Assembly: GCF_002117005.1 (NCBI RefSeq)
Contig: NZ_CP021023.1
Coordinates: forward strand, 744,001-808,000
DNA length: 64,000 nt
Source of the DNA: Sedimentisphaera salicampi
GTDB lineage: Bacteria > Planctomycetota > Phycisphaerae > Sedimentisphaerales > Sedimentisphaeraceae
Direction: 5' to 3'
The position numbers were made by a program, and so were the translations under genes. The notes under the pieces were generated by a model, which did no database searches, was not told the DNA's origin, and was given only the letters and a program-made list of their open reading frames with translations. Of the stretch, positions 8,241-56,290 are shown in pieces (positions within the stretch are counted from its first letter, which is position 1; each line of letters starts with the position of its first letter).

Positions 8241-10769
8241 TTAGAATTCTAAGCTTCCCTCAAGCCTTATGTCTTTTGAAGAGCTGCCTGCCATAATCAC
8301 AAACTCCCCTGGTTCTGCAATCCAGCAGTCGAGCTCTGGGTTGAAGAATGAAAAATCTTCTTTGCTGAGGGTGAATTGAACTGTCTTAGCCTGCCCCTTA
8401 TTGAGAGATATTTTCTCAAAGCCCTTCAGCTCTTTGACTGGTCTTTTAAGAGAACTCTTTTTATCGTGGATATAGATCTGTACGGTTTCCTTGCCCATTC
8501 TTTTGCCGGTATTCTTAACCGTGAGGGAAACGTTTGCCGTGAACGGCTCTTCGCTGGTAATTTTCAGATCGGAATATTCAAAGTTTGTATATGAAAGCCC
8601 GTGGCCAAAGGCAAACTCCGGCTCAACGTCCATCGTGTCGTAGTAGCGGTATCCCACGAAAATCCCTTCCTTATGCTCCACCTCGCCGTTCTCGCCCGGG
8701 TATTCGCCGATTGCGAAGGCAGGGGTGTCTTCGAGTCGTTTGGGCAAGGTAACAGGCAGCTTGCCTGAGGGATTAACCTTGCCGAAAATAATATCAGCTA
8801 TGGCTTCTCCGCCTCTCTGGCCGGCATACCATGCCTGAATCACAGAAGGCACGTCCTCAAGAAAGCCGCCCATCTCAACAGGCGAGCCGCCCACCATAAC
8901 AACAATAGTATTCGAGTTCGCCTCAGTGATTGCCTTGATCTGCTCTGCCTGCCTGCCCGGGAGCTTCATATCCGGCTTGTCTTTGCCTTCTCTGTCGTAT
9001 TCATGGCTCAGCCCCGCAAATACAACTGCCGCTCCGCAGCGGGAAGCCATCCGAGCGTCTTCCTTGAATATCTTGTTATGATTCATTTCTTTTCGCCAGA
9101 GCAGCTCAACTACAGAATCTTTCAGGCCGTTGTAATATTCAATTTTTATCTCACAGGTTTTATCTTTCTCAAGCCTGTACTTATCCGTTTCAAGCTGTGC
9201 GCCGTGGTTGCCCCAATTATCCACAACAAGCTCTCCGTCAATAAACAGCCTCGATCCGTCGTCGCTGTTGAGCCCGAATATATAATCCCCTGTTTCATCA
9301 ACCCTCACAGCACCAGTCCACCTTACAGAGAAGTTCGTTTTGGGCAGTTTTTTTGCCGGCGATTTTCCCGTCCAGTTGAAATTTACCTGACTGTCAATTT
9401 GCACTTCAGCGTGGCTGCCATCGAAATTTTTGTTATCGTAGTAATGGCCGATTAGCCCGTTTTGATTGGATGATTTTGAAGTAAGCAAGTTTTTAGCTGG
9501 TATGGGCTTCAATTCCTGCTTCCCGCTGTAGGGCTTGTAAAGCAGCTCTGTATTGCTCTCTTCGCAAGCCATCCGCATACCCTCCAGCGGAGTGATTTCA
9601 TAATCGCAGTGTATAGCACTGCTTCCTCCTCCTTCACTGTGAGTTTGATCTGCATTTATCCCAGTGATAAATATAGAGTCTAAGCCTTTCTTATCCAGCG
9701 GCAGGGCTGCTGGTGAATTTTTCAAAAGCACGATTGCCTCCCTTGCCGTCTCAAGTGCAATCTTTTCGTTTGCCTTTTTATCAAGCTTAGGTCTTTGCCG
9801 CTTGGGCGATTCTTTGAGAGCTCCAATTTCATAATGCAGCCTGAGCATCCGCCTTACCATATCATCAACCCTGCTCTCAGGGATCTCTCCATTTCTGCAC
9901 CCTTCAAGAAGCGGCTCGCCGAGATAGTTGTTATCATTGCCGGGCATTTCGAGGTCGAGCCCGCCCTCAGCAGCATTAACGCTGTGAACAGCTCCCCAGT
10001 CGCTCATAACAAGTCCGTCAAAACCCCATCTCTCTTTAAGTATATCGGTTTGGATAAAACCGTTTTCTGAGCAGTATGTCCCGTTGAGCTTGTTGTATGC
10101 GCTCATAACGGTTAGCACATTCCCCTCCTGCACACTGGCCTTGAAGCCAGGAAAATATATCTCGTGCAGCGTTCTTAAGTCAACGTTTTCGTCTATACTG
10201 AACCTTTGCCTTTCCTGGCTGTTCGCAACAAAGTGTTTCACGCAGGTTGCAACGCCGGTACTCTGTACGCCCTTGATGTATGGAACAATAAGCTCTGATA
10301 TGTGGTAAGGATCTTCGCTCATATATTCGAAAAATCGCCCGCAGAGCGGGTTTCGGTTGATGTTGATTGCCCCGCCCAAAATTACATCTCTCCCGGAAGC
10401 ACCGGTTTCAGTTCCCAAGGCCTTGCCGTAGTCTCTGATAAGCTCTCTGTTCCAAGTAGCTCCAACAGAAATGCCTGTTGGGAAGTAGGTGTGGGCTTCA
10501 TCCCTGTTAGGAAGGTGTTTTCTGTCTCTGTATCTAATTCCAACCCCGTGAGGCCCGTTTACAACTTCAAGCGATCTTATCCCGAGACGTTCTACTGATG
10601 CTGTGGTAAAGCGAGAAGCCCCATGACATAGTGATACCTTCTCCTCAAGCGTCATTTTCTTTAGCAATTTTTCCACAGTTTCCTCTCTGTGCAGGCTTGC
10701 TGATGCCATGCTGGAATTGATTGCCAATGCAAGAGCAATCAATAACAATAATTTCCACAGCCATCCCAT
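8241..10769 (-). CDS. GH3 family beta-glucosidase with PA14 insert; N-terminus rebuilt by an IS end
   Basis: 842-residue retaining exo-beta-glycosidase. GH3 N-terminal barrel (about 30-310) has KHFVANSQE and the nucleophile motif VMSDWGAVH (Asp257). The alpha/beta sandwich is split by a PA14 domain (about 430-545, FGLNSDDGSRLFIDGE), and a fibronectin-III-like domain closes the protein (about 745-830). It probably releases glucose or xylose from oligosaccharides outside the cytoplasm. The start is unusual: ATG and codons 2-4 lie in the terminal inverted repeat of the IS at 10756-12263, and codon 5 (TGG) straddles the junction. The original start, with AAGGA upstream, is at 12293-12295 beyond the IS. 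The hybrid N-terminus MGWLWKLLLLIALALA still looks like a signal peptide, but no clear ribosome site precedes the new ATG, so expression is uncertain. Confidence 0.9.
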   Translation of the reverse strand: MGWLWKLLLLIALALAINSSMASASLHREETVEKLLKKMTLEEKVSLCHGASRFTTASVERLGIRSLEVVNGPHGVGIRYRDRKHLPNRDEAHTYFPTGISVGATWNRELIRDYGKALGTETGASGRDVILGGAININRNPLCGRFFEYMSEDPYHISELIVPYIKGVQSTGVATCVKHFVANSQERQRFSIDENVDLRTLHEIYFPGFKASVQEGNVLTVMSAYNKLNGTYCSENGFIQTDILKERWGFDGLVMSDWGAVHSVNAAEGGLDLEMPGNDNNYLGEPLLEGCRNGEIPESRVDDMVRRMLRLHYEIGALKESPKRQRPKLDKKANEKIALETAREAIVLLKNSPAALPLDKKGLDSIFITGINADQTHSEGGGSSAIHCDYEITPLEGMRMACEESNTELLYKPYSGKQELKPIPAKNLLTSKSSNQNGLIGHYYDNKNFDGSHAEVQIDSQVNFNWTGKSPAKKLPKTNFSVRWTGAVRVDETGDYIFGLNSDDGSRLFIDGELVVDNWGNHGAQLETDKYRLEKDKTCEIKIEYYNGLKDSVVELLWRKEMNHNKIFKEDARMASRCGAAVVFAGLSHEYDREGKDKPDMKLPGRQAEQIKAITEANSNTIVVMVGGSPVEMGGFLEDVPSVIQAWYAGQRGGEAIADIIFGKVNPSGKLPVTLPKRLEDTPAFAIGEYPGENGEVEHKEGIFVGYRYYDTMDVEPEFAFGHGLSYTNFEYSDLKITSEEPFTANVSLTVKNTGKRMGKETVQIYIHDKKSSLKRPVKELKGFEKISLNKGQAKTVQFTLSKEDFSFFNPELDCWIAEPGEFVIMAGSSSKDIRLEGSLEF

Positions 10770-12263
10770 AGGTCCATAGATTTATCGTTGAGGGCTTGTT
10801 TATTGTATTAAAACGCCCTTTTCCTGAAGGATTTCAATCACCCCAGTTTGCATTTTTTTGGCTATTGTTCAATTGTCAGTTATTTGCTCAATACTGCCCA
10901 CTCTTTTTTCACCTCTTTCTTTGCGTAAAATCTTGCTACATATTAAAACCTGGCAAATAAGCCTGCTGAGGGCTTGCAACCATACGCGGTGAACCACGTG
11001 CTGTCCCACAGGCAGCCATAACGCTAAAAACATCCAGCCGGCTGAATAATACACCCCTCAGCAAAGTAAACAATCGACTGAATGTTCCTTTCCATTTGCC
11101 GAGGAAACCTATATACCGTATTAAAATATAAGCAAGCATTGCCGTCCATACTTGCCATAGAATCGCTTCTTGGCTATGCCCTAGGAAATCGCTTAGCTGC
11201 AAAGTCTGCTTTATTTGCTTGAAAAACACCTCTATGCCCCATCGGCATTTATATAGGCCGCAGATACTGCTCGGCGCCCACTGAGTATTGTTAGTGATAA
11301 ATTTCATAAGCTTTTTCTCGCCGTTAACTTCCACATAAGCCTTAACCAAACGGAGCTGCTTCGGGTAGGCCTCATAGCTTTTCGGCATTTCAAGTTCAAT
11401 TAATGCATCGTATTGGATATCACCTTTTGGTTCTGTATTCTGTTTAACAAAACGATATTTCATATTGTCTTTGGCTCTGGTAACCCAGAATAATTCTCGC
11501 CTGTCAAGATCAGCCAGATGCTTAAAATCCACGTAAGCCTTGTCAAAAACCGCTATTTCGCCGCTTTTAAGGTTCTGACAGAGCTGATAAGCCTCTGTCG
11601 AATCATGGGTTGAGGCTTCTTTTACAATAGCAAATTGAGGCAGGAATGTCTGGAGATTAAGCTGCATGTGGCACTTTGCAGCGGCTTTGCGTCTGCGATG
11701 TTTAGCCCAGTCAATACAGTTGGCTACAAGCTGAATCGTTGTTGAATCAACCGCATATATTGCTCTCTTAAAACGCCTTGGAAGGCCGGAGTATTTATGA
11801 CCTCTGCCAAAATTAGGATGCTGGGCTTGGATATGGGACAGCACCTCCCAGAAGAGAGTCTCTGCCATACGAGGATCTCGAACCCTGTTTGCATGAGAAA
11901 GCCCATTCCTGCTTGGTGGGGTTGCACGGCGAATAGGAATCAAAGCTCCGGAATGATTACGCAATGTGTCGGCAACGTCGTTCAGCGAGAGGCTGTGAGC
12001 AATCTGGACATGAAGCATAGATACAATGTGAGACCAGCACGAAAATGTTCGTGATTGCTTGTCAATACCGTAAAACCGGGATAATTTTGAAACAAGATAA
12101 GCAGGAATATATTGGCATATCTGCTTGAGAACTGTATATTGATGCTTAGCGGGTGTCATGAGTTACTCCTAATTTTTGGTTAGTTTGTTGAAATTAGTGT
12201 AACTCATACCCCGCTATTTTCAAAGAAACATCTTATATTTTGTTCTTCTATGGGATGGCTGTG
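10756..12263 (-). mobile_element. IS4-family insertion sequence, copy 1 (1508 bp)
   Basis: Perfect 16-base terminal inverted repeats, CACAGCCATCCCATAG at the left and its complement at the right, bracket one transposase gene. The element is flanked by the 9-base direct repeat AATAATTTC (10747-10755 and 12264-12272), the target duplication. It lies within the first codons of the GH3 gene. An apparently identical copy is at 54014-55521, so transposition is recent. Confidence 0.97.
10936..12159 (-). CDS. IS4-family DDE transposase (copy 1)
   Basis: 407 residues. An N-terminal DUF4372-like domain (about 1-75) precedes the DDE domain. First Asp is in AVDSTTIQL (about residue 137), second in VFDKAYVDF (about 207), and the Glu lies in the IS4-family YREK signature, seen as YKCRWGIEVFFKQIK (Y-x2-R-x3-E-x6-K, about 300-315). 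The enzyme cuts and joins the 16-base terminal repeats. It reads in the same direction as the GH3 gene it interrupts. The protein is the same as that at 54194-55417. No frameshift or stop is present, so it is probably active. Confidence 0.97.
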   Translation of the reverse strand: MTPAKHQYTVLKQICQYIPAYLVSKLSRFYGIDKQSRTFSCWSHIVSMLHVQIAHSLSLNDVADTLRNHSGALIPIRRATPPSRNGLSHANRVRDPRMAETLFWEVLSHIQAQHPNFGRGHKYSGLPRRFKRAIYAVDSTTIQLVANCIDWAKHRRRKAAAKCHMQLNLQTFLPQFAIVKEASTHDSTEAYQLCQNLKSGEIAVFDKAYVDFKHLADLDRRELFWVTRAKDNMKYRFVKQNTEPKGDIQYDALIELEMPKSYEAYPKQLRLVKAYVEVNGEKKLMKFITNNTQWAPSSICGLYKCRWGIEVFFKQIKQTLQLSDFLGHSQEAILWQVWTAMLAYILIRYIGFLGKWKGTFSRLFTLLRGVLFSRLDVFSVMAACGTARGSPRMVASPQQAYLPGFNM

Positions 12264-20327: not shown

Positions 20328-20378
20328 TCAGCAAATACGGCTCAATTGATCCCCCGATTTAAAATACGCAATAAAAGG

Positions 20379-20793
20379 GTGTGCGACAATTTTTTTGGGC
20401 AAAGCTTTTTAAAGCTGAATCTATCCGCTTGTTCCGGCCCGCCTACGGCGGGCCTCCACGTGCGGCTCGGTTTAAATGTTCGCCTCGTAAAATCGCTGCG
20501 GAATACTAACGACAATCAGAGCCACGCATGAAGTCCGCCTACGGCGGACGAAATAAGTGGACAAAAGGCAATGAGAAGGCAATAGGTATAAGTTTTTTCC
20601 ACCAAATTTTCACGCTTCGCAGGCAAGGCGCTCGCGCAGGTTCGCCTCTACTTGCCAACAAAACCAGCAGACAAAAAATCCTTAGCGAGTTTTCCGCCGC
20701 AGGCGGACTGGCTCAGTAATATAGATAGCAATAAATTCTACAAAGCATTGCAGCATAATGATTTGCATTTTGTAAAAAAATATTGTCGCACAC
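20379..20793 (+). mobile_element. MITE-like nonautonomous element (415 bp) with target duplication
   Basis: The ends are inverted repeats: GTGTGCGACAAT followed by a T run at the left, and its complement at the right (20782-20793). The 8 bases ATAAAAGG occur directly outside both ends (20371-20378 and 20794-20801), a target duplication. The interior has no transposase; it carries GCCTACGGCGGGC-type palindromes and a block (around 20456-20560) also found twice at 55720-56290. A 120-codon frame across the right part is not protein-like. The 20802-20979 stretch to the kinase gene holds no other gene. Confidence 0.8.
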
Positions 20794-20979
20794 ATAAAAG
20801 GGATAAAGCTAAAATACACTTGTTTATGAAGCTGGATTATGTTAGTATAAATTACAAATACAAAATATATCTCCCTTTTGCACAGTTCAAAAGGATAAGG
20901 CAAAATATTAAAAAAGGCTTGTATGTGCATACACATTCAGGTTGGAAAATAGCCAAAGGCAGGCTTTGCAGGAAGTTGA

Positions 20980-30252: not shown

Positions 30253-31796
<1,544 letters not shown>

Positions 31797-38671: not shown

Positions 38672-39186
38672 TTCAGAATACCAAGCTTCGTGTGCGACAA
38701 TATTTTTTGGCAAAGCTTTTTTAAGCCGAATCTATACGCCGCAGGCGGACAGACGCAGAGGAAATATATATAATCCACAGATTACACGGATTACACAGAG
38801 GTTTTTAAATAGATATATCATTCTCTCTCTCCGATTGCTCTCCGCCTCCGGCGGACAGGCTCGGTATAAATCAAATTTACATTGGAGGGGGGACAGGCAC
38901 ATAAATGAGGGAAGGCTCTCTGCCGGCAAGGACGGCGCCACGCAATACACAATTTTATTCTTATGCGGAAAATGTGTTTTTGACACGGAGATACCGGAGG
39001 AAACGGAGGGGAGATGTGATTTTGACAGGATTTACAGCCCCGAACCGCTTTTGCTACGGGGCAAGGATTGACAGGATAAATATTAAATAAGGAAAAGGCG
39101 GAGAGAAATTTTTCAGCCGCTAATCAGCACTAATTATTCACTGATGATCTGCATTTTGCCCAAAAAAATTCAGAATACCAAGCTTC
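38672..39186 (+). repeat. Dispersed mosaic repeat, copy B, flanked by an 18-base direct repeat
   Basis: The interior 38690-39168 starts with GTGTGCGACAAT plus a T run, like the MITE at 20379, and ends with GCATTTTGCCCAAAAAAA, where the final 12-base end is missing. TTCAGAATACCAAGCTTC occurs immediately outside both sides (38672-38689 and 39169-39186). The interior carries CCGCAGGCGG and CCGCCTCCGGCGG palindromes and blocks shared with 16205-16445, 52860-52990 and, inverted, 55870-55990. No gene is present from 38576 to 39394. Confidence 0.75.
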
Positions 39187-45821: not shown

Positions 45822-45833
45822 ATTGTCGCACAC
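45822..45833 (-). repeat. Solitary MITE-type end
   Basis: ATTGTCGCACAC preceded by an A run, the same 12-base end found in the 20379-20793 element, but with no partner end nearby. It lies in the 269-base divergent gap between the GH-A hydrolase gene and murB, which has no other recognised feature. Confidence 0.5.
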
Positions 45834-48795: not shown

Positions 48796-48896
48796 CATTG
48801 CGCAGAATCTCTGCGGATTGAATTATCTGAGTTTGTGTTGAATCTTTCTGTTTATAACCGTGTTATCTGCTCTCTACTGCGGCGTCTCTGGGCAGT

Positions 48897-50286
48897 GTCC
48901 CAAATTGTGTGTCTGAAGGATCTTTTCAGCATTTATGCTTAGCTCCTTATTTCACCTCAGGGTACCCTGAGGTGAAATTTTCCGCCTTTCTTTTGCCATT
49001 GTATCAAGTTCATCCTTGCATGCAAACAGACTCGTAACTTTATACCTCATCAATTTCGTCTCACTGTGCTCCATTAAACGGGCGCAGATCAGATTCAACG
49101 CACTTTCTTCTGTAGGAAAGCTGCAGCGTATTTTAACGGTTCTCCTGATTATCCTGTTAAGAGCCTCTATCCAATTGGTGGTGTACATCATACGATGCAG
49201 TTTAGTCGGATATTTCAAATATGTGAAATAATCATCCCTCTCCTGCTCAGGGAAAATATTCTCAAAACTGCTGTACTTCTTTGCCCATTTCTTCACAAAT
49301 TTATCCAGCTCGCATTTACCATCTTCTAAACGGTAGCTGCCATCTTCAAGCTTGAAGACCGCTTTGAAATCTGAGGCAACTTCCTTCTTGTCATTTTGGC
49401 GAACCTTGCTGAGTACATTGCGAAGCTTATGAATAAGACAACGTTGAAAATCGCTTGAAGGATAAACCCTGCTCACAGTTTCCGACAAACCCTTTAGACC
49501 ATCTGCAGCAAAGCAAAGAACCTTCTTTACTCCACGCTCTTTGAGGTCTTTAAGAACTGAATGCCAGCCTTCGCTGCTCTCTTCTGGTATATTGTAAACA
49601 CCTAATACATCTCGACTTAGGTCTTCCTTTAGCCCTAAAGCAACGTACATCGATTCATTGGAAACCTTGTCCCTGCGAAGCTTTACCTTTACCGCATCAA
49701 TGTAAATGATGTACCAGTCTTCATCCAGCGGCCTGTTCTGCCAGAGCTTGCGGTATTCTGTGAAATTCGAGGTTATGCGAGATATGCTGCTCTTGGAGTA
49801 ATTTTGCTCGAAAAGCTCCTGGAAAATCTCTTCGATCTCTCGAGTCGTAAGGCCTTTGCTGTATAACCTAAAGGCTAAATTATCATATTTGCCTCTCTGA
49901 GAATTTAACAGATCAAGAAAAAATGGCTGAAAATTACCAAGACGATCTCGGGGAATGTTTATCCTGAAAGTGGATTGCAATCCCTGGACTAAAGCCTGAC
50001 GGTAACCATTACGCTTGTTGCTCGTGGATTTGTCTTTCCGGCAGCCGTTGACGTAACCCAAAAATTCATCCTGCTCGGCTTTGAGAATAGTCTCGAATGT
50101 AATCCGAATTGCATCTTCCAAACTTTTCCCGCTGTGGGCAAGAAAATCTTCAACCGCTTTTTCCAAAATTGTGTTATAATTCCTTTTCATAGGGGTTCCT
50201 TTTTGTTTAATTTGACTTTTTTTTAACATACTAAGCATATAGCTTAGAAAAGGAATCCCTTTTTCTTTAGACACACTAATTGGGAC
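48897..50286 (-). mobile_element. IS256-family insertion sequence (about 1390 bp)
   Basis: Imperfect terminal inverted repeats: GTCCCAAATTGTGTGTCT at the left and the complement of GTCCCAATTAGTGTGTCT at the right, around one IS256-type transposase gene. No 8-base target duplication is visible (TGGGCAGT left, GGTCTCCG right), so one side may have been deleted or rearranged. The right end overlaps the end of the antiporter reading frame and gives it its stop codon. The 48796-48896 stretch before it has no gene. Confidence 0.85.
48952..50190 (-). CDS. IS256-family transposase
   Basis: About 412 residues, a mutator-type DDE transposase. First Asp in WYIIYIDAVKVKLR, second in LCFAADGLKGL, with DFQRCLIHKLRNVLSKV after it, and the Glu in TTNWIEALNRIIRRTVKIR, all family hallmarks. 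The start MKRNYNTILEKAVEDFL is chosen because homologues begin here and GGAAC precedes it; the frame continues to 50334, crossing the IS end into the antiporter gene, which is not plausible. No internal stop or frameshift; it could be active. Confidence 0.95.
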   Translation of the reverse strand: MKRNYNTILEKAVEDFLAHSGKSLEDAIRITFETILKAEQDEFLGYVNGCRKDKSTSNKRNGYRQALVQGLQSTFRINIPRDRLGNFQPFFLDLLNSQRGKYDNLAFRLYSKGLTTREIEEIFQELFEQNYSKSSISRITSNFTEYRKLWQNRPLDEDWYIIYIDAVKVKLRRDKVSNESMYVALGLKEDLSRDVLGVYNIPEESSEGWHSVLKDLKERGVKKVLCFAADGLKGLSETVSRVYPSSDFQRCLIHKLRNVLSKVRQNDKKEVASDFKAVFKLEDGSYRLEDGKCELDKFVKKWAKKYSSFENIFPEQERDDYFTYLKYPTKLHRMMYTTNWIEALNRIIRRTVKIRCSFPTEESALNLICARLMEHSETKLMRYKVTSLFACKDELDTMAKERRKISPQGTLR

Positions 50287-51520
50287 GGTCTCCGTCTCTG
50301 GCAGGTGATTTAGTTTGTTGGGGAGATTGGGCAAGCAGGTGTTTGCCGCCCCATGTGATTGCTATGCTGCCCAGAGGAGCCGTGATAACGATGCTCATCG
50401 CAGCGGCAGCGAGGATAATCTCGCCCGGTCCAGTATCCATTCCGCCCGCTTTCATTGCAGCGAGCGGTGCAGCCCCGATTGCCGCCTGCACTGTGGCCTT
50501 GGGAAGATAGGCGAGCGTGAGAAAGAGCCTCTCGCGGGCGCTGAACTTGCTCTTAATCATACACAGCTGCACAGCAACGCTCCTTCCGATCAGCCCTGTC
50601 AATATCACCCCTACCCCCGAGAGGCCGGCCTTCACAGCAACGGGCACATTGACCTCCGTTCCCACGAATATGAACAGAAGGAGCTGGGCAAACACCCAAA
50701 CCTTCCCGAGTTTGCTTGAGAGCTCGTGGGCGATATGCTCTCTTTTTTCGAGGATGATAAAGCCCGCTGCCATTATCGCAAGCAGAGAGGCAAACGGAAT
50801 GAAACCCTCAATCCAATTTTCGAGATTCAGGATTATTATCGAAAGCCCCAGCAGGATAAGCACTCGTTTTGTAGCCCTGGGGTTGAATTTTTCGAAGAAG
50901 CGGCAGAGAACAAAGCCAATCCCCAACCCAGCAGCTATCCCTGCTGCAATAGAAACAGGCACGCCCGCAAGCTCCGAGGCAACGCTCACATCGCCTCCTG
51001 TGTACATACTGATAAACGCCCCGCAGAGAACAATCGCTACCGCATCATCGCAGGATGCCCCAGCGAGAATAAGCGTTGGAGCTGCCTTGTCTTCCCCCCT
51101 TCGCTCTTCGATGAAACGTATCATAAGCGGCACAACCACCGCCGGCGAAACAGCCGCAAGAACTGCACCAAGCATCGCAGATTCAAGCACAGTGAGCCCC
51201 AAGAGGTACGGAGCGGCAAGAGTTACCGCGGCCACCTCAAACAAACACGGTATAAACGCCATAAGAGCTGCCCTGAGCCCAACCTGAGCGAGTGCCTGCC
51301 GGCTCATCTCGAGCCCAGCCCGAAGCAGAATAACCACGAGGGCAATCATCCGCCAGTCCGCTGATACGGCAGTTGTGGCGGGGTTTACTGCATCGAGAAA
51401 ATGCGGCCCCATCACCACGCCCAGAAGCAGCAGACCAACCAGCCCGGGAACCCGGGCAAAACGCATCAGCCAGTCAACAAGAAGACCGAGAAGTATCAGC
51501 TCTGCAATACCTAAAGCCAT
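50276..51520 (-). CDS. Cation/proton antiporter (CPA family), C-terminus altered by an IS
   Basis: 414 residues, about 12-13 transmembrane helices. LGVVMGPHFLD, VVILLRAGLEMS, AAVSPAVVVPLMIRF and GASCDDAVAIVL (paired Asp of the transport core) mark a Na+/H+ or K+/H+ antiporter in the inner membrane. No RCK/TrkA-N domain is present. The last codons (SPARDGDRPN) run into the IS256-family terminal repeat, where the TAG stop lies, so the original C-terminus was probably longer or different. The transport core is intact, so activity is likely preserved. The 51521-51685 gap has no recognised gene. Confidence 0.88.
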   Translation of the reverse strand: MALGIAELILLGLLVDWLMRFARVPGLVGLLLLGVVMGPHFLDAVNPATTAVSADWRMIALVVILLRAGLEMSRQALAQVGLRAALMAFIPCLFEVAAVTLAAPYLLGLTVLESAMLGAVLAAVSPAVVVPLMIRFIEERRGEDKAAPTLILAGASCDDAVAIVLCGAFISMYTGGDVSVASELAGVPVSIAAGIAAGLGIGFVLCRFFEKFNPRATKRVLILLGLSIIILNLENWIEGFIPFASLLAIMAAGFIILEKREHIAHELSSKLGKVWVFAQLLLFIFVGTEVNVPVAVKAGLSGVGVILTGLIGRSVAVQLCMIKSKFSARERLFLTLAYLPKATVQAAIGAAPLAAMKAGGMDTGPGEIILAAAAMSIVITAPLGSIAITWGGKHLLAQSPQQTKSPARDGDRPN

Positions 51521-54013: not shown

Positions 54014-55521
54014 CACAGCCATCCCATAGGTCCATAGATTTATCGTTGAGGGCTTGTTTATTGTATTAAAACGCCCTTTTCCTGAAGGATTTCAATCACC
54101 CCAGTTTGCATTTTTTTGGCTATTGTTCAATTGTCAGTTATTTGCTCAATACTGCCCACTCTTTTTTCACCTCTTTCTTTGCGTAAAATCTTGCTACATA
54201 TTAAAACCTGGCAAATAAGCCTGCTGAGGGCTTGCAACCATACGCGGTGAACCACGTGCTGTCCCACAGGCAGCCATAACGCTAAAAACATCCAGCCGGC
54301 TGAATAATACACCCCTCAGCAAAGTAAACAATCGACTGAATGTTCCTTTCCATTTGCCGAGGAAACCTATATACCGTATTAAAATATAAGCAAGCATTGC
54401 CGTCCATACTTGCCATAGAATCGCTTCTTGGCTATGCCCTAGGAAATCGCTTAGCTGCAAAGTCTGCTTTATTTGCTTGAAAAACACCTCTATGCCCCAT
54501 CGGCATTTATATAGGCCGCAGATACTGCTCGGCGCCCACTGAGTATTGTTAGTGATAAATTTCATAAGCTTTTTCTCGCCGTTAACTTCCACATAAGCCT
54601 TAACCAAACGGAGCTGCTTCGGGTAGGCCTCATAGCTTTTCGGCATTTCAAGTTCAATTAATGCATCGTATTGGATATCACCTTTTGGTTCTGTATTCTG
54701 TTTAACAAAACGATATTTCATATTGTCTTTGGCTCTGGTAACCCAGAATAATTCTCGCCTGTCAAGATCAGCCAGATGCTTAAAATCCACGTAAGCCTTG
54801 TCAAAAACCGCTATTTCGCCGCTTTTAAGGTTCTGACAGAGCTGATAAGCCTCTGTCGAATCATGGGTTGAGGCTTCTTTTACAATAGCAAATTGAGGCA
54901 GGAATGTCTGGAGATTAAGCTGCATGTGGCACTTTGCAGCGGCTTTGCGTCTGCGATGTTTAGCCCAGTCAATACAGTTGGCTACAAGCTGAATCGTTGT
55001 TGAATCAACCGCATATATTGCTCTCTTAAAACGCCTTGGAAGGCCGGAGTATTTATGACCTCTGCCAAAATTAGGATGCTGGGCTTGGATATGGGACAGC
55101 ACCTCCCAGAAGAGAGTCTCTGCCATACGAGGATCTCGAACCCTGTTTGCATGAGAAAGCCCATTCCTGCTTGGTGGGGTTGCACGGCGAATAGGAATCA
55201 AAGCTCCGGAATGATTACGCAATGTGTCGGCAACGTCGTTCAGCGAGAGGCTGTGAGCAATCTGGACATGAAGCATAGATACAATGTGAGACCAGCACGA
55301 AAATGTTCGTGATTGCTTGTCAATACCGTAAAACCGGGATAATTTTGAAACAAGATAAGCAGGAATATATTGGCATATCTGCTTGAGAACTGTATATTGA
55401 TGCTTAGCGGGTGTCATGAGTTACTCCTAATTTTTGGTTAGTTTGTTGAAATTAGTGTAACTCATACCCCGCTATTTTCAAAGAAACATCTTATATTTTG
55501 TTCTTCTATGGGATGGCTGTG
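54014..55521 (-). mobile_element. IS4-family insertion sequence, copy 2 (1508 bp)
   Basis: Same length, same 16-base terminal inverted repeats and apparently identical sequence to the copy at 10756-12263. Flanked by the 9-base direct repeat ATTTGGTTT (54005-54013 and 55522-55530). It lies between codons 7 and 10 of the excisionase-like gene, again with transposase and target gene in the same direction. Here the IS-derived ATG runs into a TGA at the junction, so no fusion is possible. Confidence 0.97.
54194..55417 (-). CDS. IS4-family DDE transposase (copy 2)
   Basis: 407 residues, identical in translation to the copy at 10936-12159. AVDSTTIQL, VFDKAYVDF and the YREK signature YKCRWGIEVFFKQIK are all intact. 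The identity of both the gene and the non-coding ends of the two copies indicates that one transposed from the other (or both from a third) very recently, before any mutation accumulated. Confidence 0.97.
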   Translation of the reverse strand: MTPAKHQYTVLKQICQYIPAYLVSKLSRFYGIDKQSRTFSCWSHIVSMLHVQIAHSLSLNDVADTLRNHSGALIPIRRATPPSRNGLSHANRVRDPRMAETLFWEVLSHIQAQHPNFGRGHKYSGLPRRFKRAIYAVDSTTIQLVANCIDWAKHRRRKAAAKCHMQLNLQTFLPQFAIVKEASTHDSTEAYQLCQNLKSGEIAVFDKAYVDFKHLADLDRRELFWVTRAKDNMKYRFVKQNTEPKGDIQYDALIELEMPKSYEAYPKQLRLVKAYVEVNGEKKLMKFITNNTQWAPSSICGLYKCRWGIEVFFKQIKQTLQLSDFLGHSQEAILWQVWTAMLAYILIRYIGFLGKWKGTFSRLFTLLRGVLFSRLDVFSVMAACGTARGSPRMVASPQQAYLPGFNM

Positions 55522-55719: not shown

Positions 55720-56290
55720 CGTGGCTCGGTTTAAATATCTCGTTTTGTGAAGTCGCTGCGAAATACTAACGACAATCAGAGCCGTGCGTGGAGTCCGCCG
55801 GAGGCGGACGGAGCAAACGGATAGATTCTTGGCTCGTGGCGAGTGGCTGAGCTGCAAGTCCGCCTGCGGCGGATTGCTCGTGGCAAAATCATTAGTGAAA
55901 AATTAGTGTTGATTAGTGGCTGAAAAATTTTCTCCCCGCCTTTTCCTATATTAAATATTTATCCTGTGAATCCTGTAAATCCTGTCAAAAAAAAAATCTC
56001 CCCTCTGTGCCCCTCTGTGTGCCTCTGTGGTTAATATATATCTTTTCTCTCCATACTGCTGTCCACTTATTTCGCCCCGCCTGCGGCGGGCCTACATGCG
56101 TGGCTCGGTTTAAATATCTCGTTTTGTGAAATCGCTGCGAAATACTAACGACAATCAGAGCCGCACGTGGAGTCCGCCGAAGGCGAAGAGCCTGTCCGCC
56201 GAAGGCGGAAAGCAAGCGGATAGATTCGTGGCTCGTGGCTCTTTGCAAAATCATTAGTGGAAAATCAGAATAGATTAGTGAGTGGACGAG
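55720..56290 (+). repeat. Dispersed mosaic repeat, copy E, with an internal direct repeat
   Basis: A ~100-base block beginning TGCGTGGCTCGGTTTAAAT occurs at about 55718 and again at about 56096, and once inside the MITE-like element at 20379-20793. CCGCCGGAGGCGG-type palindromes punctuate it, and 55870-55990 is the inverted counterpart of a part of copy B (around 39050-39150). No gene is present between 55580 and 56591; the last 300 bases are AT-rich without a recognised feature. Confidence 0.75.

Follow-up and report, generated by a model that had tools for sequence, protein, structure and literature searches.

What is the 415-bp intergenic element, with matched ends and a repeated octamer on either side, that lies between 20327, where a short gene ends, and 20980, where a long kinase-like gene with multiple PAS domains starts, and how did it come to be there? 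The coordinates given here are those of the window, the whole 64,000-nucleotide stretch of Sedimentisphaera salicampi DNA analyzed, unless they are marked as genome positions. Exact coordinates were read from the sequence: positions 20371 to 20801 contain, in order, an 8-bp target-site duplication (TSD), ATAAAAGG (20371-20378), an element of 415 bp (20379-20793) that opens with GTGTGCGACAAT and closes with ATTGTCGCACAC, and a second ATAAAAGG of 8 bp (20794-20801). The left terminal inverted repeat (20379-20390, plus strand) is GTGTGCGACAAT, extending as GTGTGCGACAATTTTTTTGGGCAAAGCTTTTTAAA, and the right one (20782-20793, minus strand) is again GTGTGCGACAAT, extending as GTGTGCGACAATATTTTTTTACAAAATGCAAATCA. 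The 12-bp ends are perfect inverted copies of each other, and they reach ~25 bp if imperfect matching is counted. No transposase-like frame was found inside the element, where the longest internal frames, of 60-odd amino acids, are mechanical open reading frames. A sequence-only reading of this DNA had reported the matched ends, the exact 8-base duplication outside them, and the lack of an internal transposase, and all of these are confirmed at the same positions.

The element thus has the terminal inverted repeats, small size, and lack of a transposase that are expected of a MITE, and its family adds a fixed-length TSD, multiple dispersed copies, and empty sites. We consider, with a probability of about 0.93, that 20379-20793 is a nonautonomous MITE mobilized in trans by a transposase that makes 8-bp duplications. 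A transposase supplied in trans, putatively of the DDE type, would move geneless DNA of ~150 to 490 bp with ~25-bp imperfect inverted ends; it would cut at GTG/CAC, and staggered cuts 8 bp apart would leave the 8-bp duplications.

Within the window, perfect 12-bp ends are found at 20379 (plus strand), 20782-20793 (minus strand), 38690 (plus strand), and 45822-45833 (minus strand), and with up to 2 mismatches allowed there are 6 matches versus 3.8 expected, which is not above chance. Genome-wide counts, taken over one contig of 3.19 Mb that includes the window, gave 35 exact 12-mers and none for a reversed-pattern control (the same letters backwards), and the 18-mer end with up to 3 mismatches gave 88 matches versus 3 for the control. 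The genome search for the 12-base end that had been proposed as a check did bring up further paired ends. A DNA search with the element gave 108 matches in the genome, ~11 of them near full length, with further ~415-bp copies at 97% identity, the best value seen. Family members are ~150 to 490 bp long, contain no gene, and have ~25-bp imperfect inverted ends that read GTGTGCGACAATWTTTTT and then GGCAAA. The inner parts of a copy's two ends usually differ, with GGCAAAGCTTTTTAAA on one and GGCAAAATGCAAATCA on the other, so that the shared inverted repeat is the outer ~25 bases. This is a dispersed family of small geneless mobile elements, with dozens of copies across this genome and that of the sister species, and it accounts for many of the repeated intergenic sequences of the genome.

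Two features of the surroundings of family ends may be recorded here. At genome positions 2088969 and 2090526 (loci L194 and L022), two family ends 1.5 kb apart are bordered on the outside by one and the same 20-bp sequence, ttgaatatgtgggaatgaaa, a pattern that a tandem duplication of a gene together with its MITE end would leave. Minisatellite-like tandem arrays (GTGTGGGAGAAA units, with frames reading VDEPSGYAFVLKGGKDYSLPKA) lie near family ends at L067, L069, L072, and L012, and arrays of the same type fill a 1378-bp end pair at genome position 1812393.

The duplications were assessed on 20 facing end pairs, with 100 to 1500 bp between the ends, from the DNA that was read. An exact 8-bp TSD is present in 8 of the 20, and one further pair matches at 7 of 8 positions; none of the mispaired controls (n=380) did better than 6 of 8. 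Duplications of other lengths between 3 and 12 were not recurrent: lengths 3 and 5 were seen in one pair each and the rest in none. The duplicated 8-mers vary between copies, as expected of target DNA. A recognizable TSD is missing from 11 of the 20 pairs, for which decay, false pairing, or rearrangement could account. The fixed 8-bp TSD at paired ends genome-wide bears out the earlier proposal of a nonautonomous family with 8-bp duplications. When the sites were rejoined, the frames running across the insertion point were mostly short; three exceed 100 codons (genome positions 1194825, 1469228, and 1491173) and are read not as interrupted genes but, putatively, as antisense frames or as extensions of frames on their upstream side.

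The remaining ends in the window were treated in the same way. The one at 38690, where the sequence-only reading had noted this end alone, is the left end of a copy 489 bp long (38690-39178). It is bordered on each side by CAAGCTTC, an exact 8-bp TSD, the whole spanning 38682-39186. In place of its last ~10 bases this copy has a duplicate of the 10 bases to the left of its left duplication, and the result is an 18-bp direct repeat, TTCAGAATACCAAGCTTC, flanking the remainder; such an altered right end could have arisen through repair or template switching across the duplication. The end at 45822-45833 (minus strand, GTGTGCGACAATTTTTTTC) is indeed solo, as had been noted, with no partner end or matching 8-mer TSD within 2 kb. 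Synteny with the compared stretch of the sister species stops short of both sites. The window also includes a 16S rRNA gene (30259-31796, minus strand), and its genes point to a planctomycete of the Phycisphaerae.

Comparison with relatives shows the insertions directly. At genome position 1491173 the sister species has both flanks (80 to 91% identity), no element, and a single copy of the target, which is a clean empty site of the kind that the sequence-only reading had recommended looking for, and its ground for abandoning the transposon idea, a locus conserved in relatives with no empty-site variant, does not apply. The empty site also speaks against the idea that the 8-bp matches belong to some longer conserved sequence and are not target DNA. 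The sister species likewise lacks the insertion at genome position 2420749, which here lies in the T-tract of a hairpin resembling a terminator. At least one other copy is common to both species with the same outer flank (2177738 in G000 and 2025972 in G004), and thus predates the species split; there are accordingly insertions that the two species share and others that are private, and these, together with the empty sites, provide clean markers for comparing them. In the sister's intergenic counterpart of 20371-20801 the 415-bp element is absent, but different repeats, a further family end among them, occupy the space, so that the site does not count as a clean empty one.

Family ends were found in two of the five genomes searched in the taxonomic family, this one and one congener (G004), and of 161 genomes searched in the order, the 2 that matched the element DNA both belong to this genus. 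The exact 18-bp end pattern gave 11 single hits in unrelated taxa in GTDB 220 (~85,000 species genomes, from which own-genome or very near records were possibly left out), about the chance expectation by estimate. Among the genomes searched, the family is restricted to the genus.

If the family was mobilized in trans, its partner should be a transposase gene enclosed by these very ends. End pairs with up to 3 of 18 mismatches enclose no transposase anywhere in the genome, and the only wide pair (1378 bp, genome positions 1812393-1813770) has neither a transposase frame nor a TSD. IS66, ISL3, IS1595, and IS256 are families that make 8-bp TSDs. IS66 and IS1595 transposases are each absent from the genus (0 of 2 genomes), so that a MITE derived from either would have no resident source, and ISL3 is represented solely by a degraded fragment, a 103-amino-acid frame with two stops, which was rejected as the partner since no family ends lie near it.

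The best of the competing explanations is that the elements are internally deleted derivatives of an IS still active here, the IS256-family element, a copy of which lies in the window at ~48891-50292. The genome holds four near-identical copies, and all show 8-bp duplications (cagagacg for the copy in the window and catctgaa, tctaattt, and aaaaatac for the others), as this origin would predict. The ends of IS256 are GAGACCGTCCCAATTAGTGTGTC and GGCAGTGTCCCAAATTGTGTGTC, however, and not GTGTGCGACAAT, so that the shared terminus of an IS256-derived MITE is lacking, and the sister species carries the MITE yet has just an IS256 fragment with a 151-amino-acid frame. We regard this origin as highly improbable.

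Other resident elements fare no better as sources. Both genomes have many PF01609 elements, and none of those with ends that were read has GTGTGCGACAAT. The IS4-like element with a 408-amino-acid DDE_Tnp_1 frame, present in nine copies with identical ends in the genome and twice in the window (10756-12263 and 54014-55521, with 9-bp duplications gaaattatt and aaaccaaat), was rejected because its ends are CACAGCCATCCCATAG and not the family ends. The IS elements adjoining family ends in the sister species, two IS1634-like (TAACCCCGATTTCTCACTTAG and TTCCTGACTTCGGCGGTA) and one IS5-like, have unrelated ends of their own. Differing IS1634-like elements were seen directly beside or within family ends at L126 and L161, in both species; given the copy number, this proximity may be coincidence.

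The search for an autonomous IS with the same ends, which had also been suggested, thus came out negative among the IS66, IS1595, ISL3, IS256, and IS4/IS1634/IS5-type elements examined in the two genomes of the genus. The nonautonomous family with its TSDs stands; its movement in trans by an unseen transposase is a step that we infer, no intact autonomous copy having been found. The partner transposase has presumably been lost, has degenerated, or lies outside the families searched. A more specific version, which we think unlikely but conceivable, is that the MITE family has been orphaned: its transposase, which made 8-bp duplications, would have belonged to an IS group, undescribed or unrecognized, that the genus no longer has, and the dozens of copies and fragments would be all that records it.

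The interior of the element has a palindromic core module (20421-20561) that also occurs outside the 415-bp element and whose arms are swapped in some copies. The core is ~130 bp long with GGCGG palindromes, sits either way round relative to the outer arms, occurs without family ends and in many more places than the whole element, and is present at the sister's counterpart of 20371-20801; it seems to be a dispersed repeat in its own right that the MITE carries. Immediately beyond the second IS4-like copy there are two core-repeat pieces (55723-56185) without family ends. A core that is palindromic, independent of the ends, found in both orientations, and dominant in the copy number of DNA matches is what one would expect if the element were a dispersed extragenic repeat of the REP/BIME kind, spread by recombination with no transposon involved. 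For the whole element, we find this hardly tenable: a TSD of constant 8-bp length beside defined ends, together with an empty site that holds the target once, is the mark of transposition, whereas REP/BIME-type units are short palindromic repeats without TSDs. It may still hold for the core module. That the locus is a regulatory or structured RNA element kept by selection is extremely improbable, for although the 415 bp fold as single-stranded DNA better than shuffles (z = -4.0), such folding follows by construction from the palindromes inside and the long inverted ends, no Rfam family matches at the locus, and the sister species lacks the element at the orthologous position.

The MITE reading adds a family to a little-studied bacterial group and leaves the general view of mobile DNA unchanged; the element is genuine mobile DNA of a commonplace kind. 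The family is apparently undescribed in the literature searched: no paper linked MITEs to this bacterial group or printed the family end in a relevant setting, and a full-text search for the 12-mer returned unrelated papers only, apparently primers or chance. With the IS66, ISL3, IS1595, and IS256 families it shares the 8-bp target duplication, but its ends differ from those of IS256, and the IS66 and IS1595 transposases do not occur in the genus. Known bacterial MITEs include Correia/NEMIS, RUP, Chunjie, and Nezha, and the present family is like them in being short, geneless, dispersed, intergenic, and genus-restricted, with inverted ends and a fixed-length TSD; it is unlike those described in that its end, GTGTGCGACAATWTTTTT, matched none, its interior is modular with a separate palindromic core, and it has no autonomous partner among the elements found. 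GTAG- and CGTC-tagged palindromes have been reported in prokaryotes (PMC3733652). REP/BIME-type repeats resemble the inner GGCGG palindromes of the MITE and its core that recurs in many places, but they are 20 to 40 bp long against ~130 bp for the core, and the whole MITE is set apart from them by its transposon ends and TSD.
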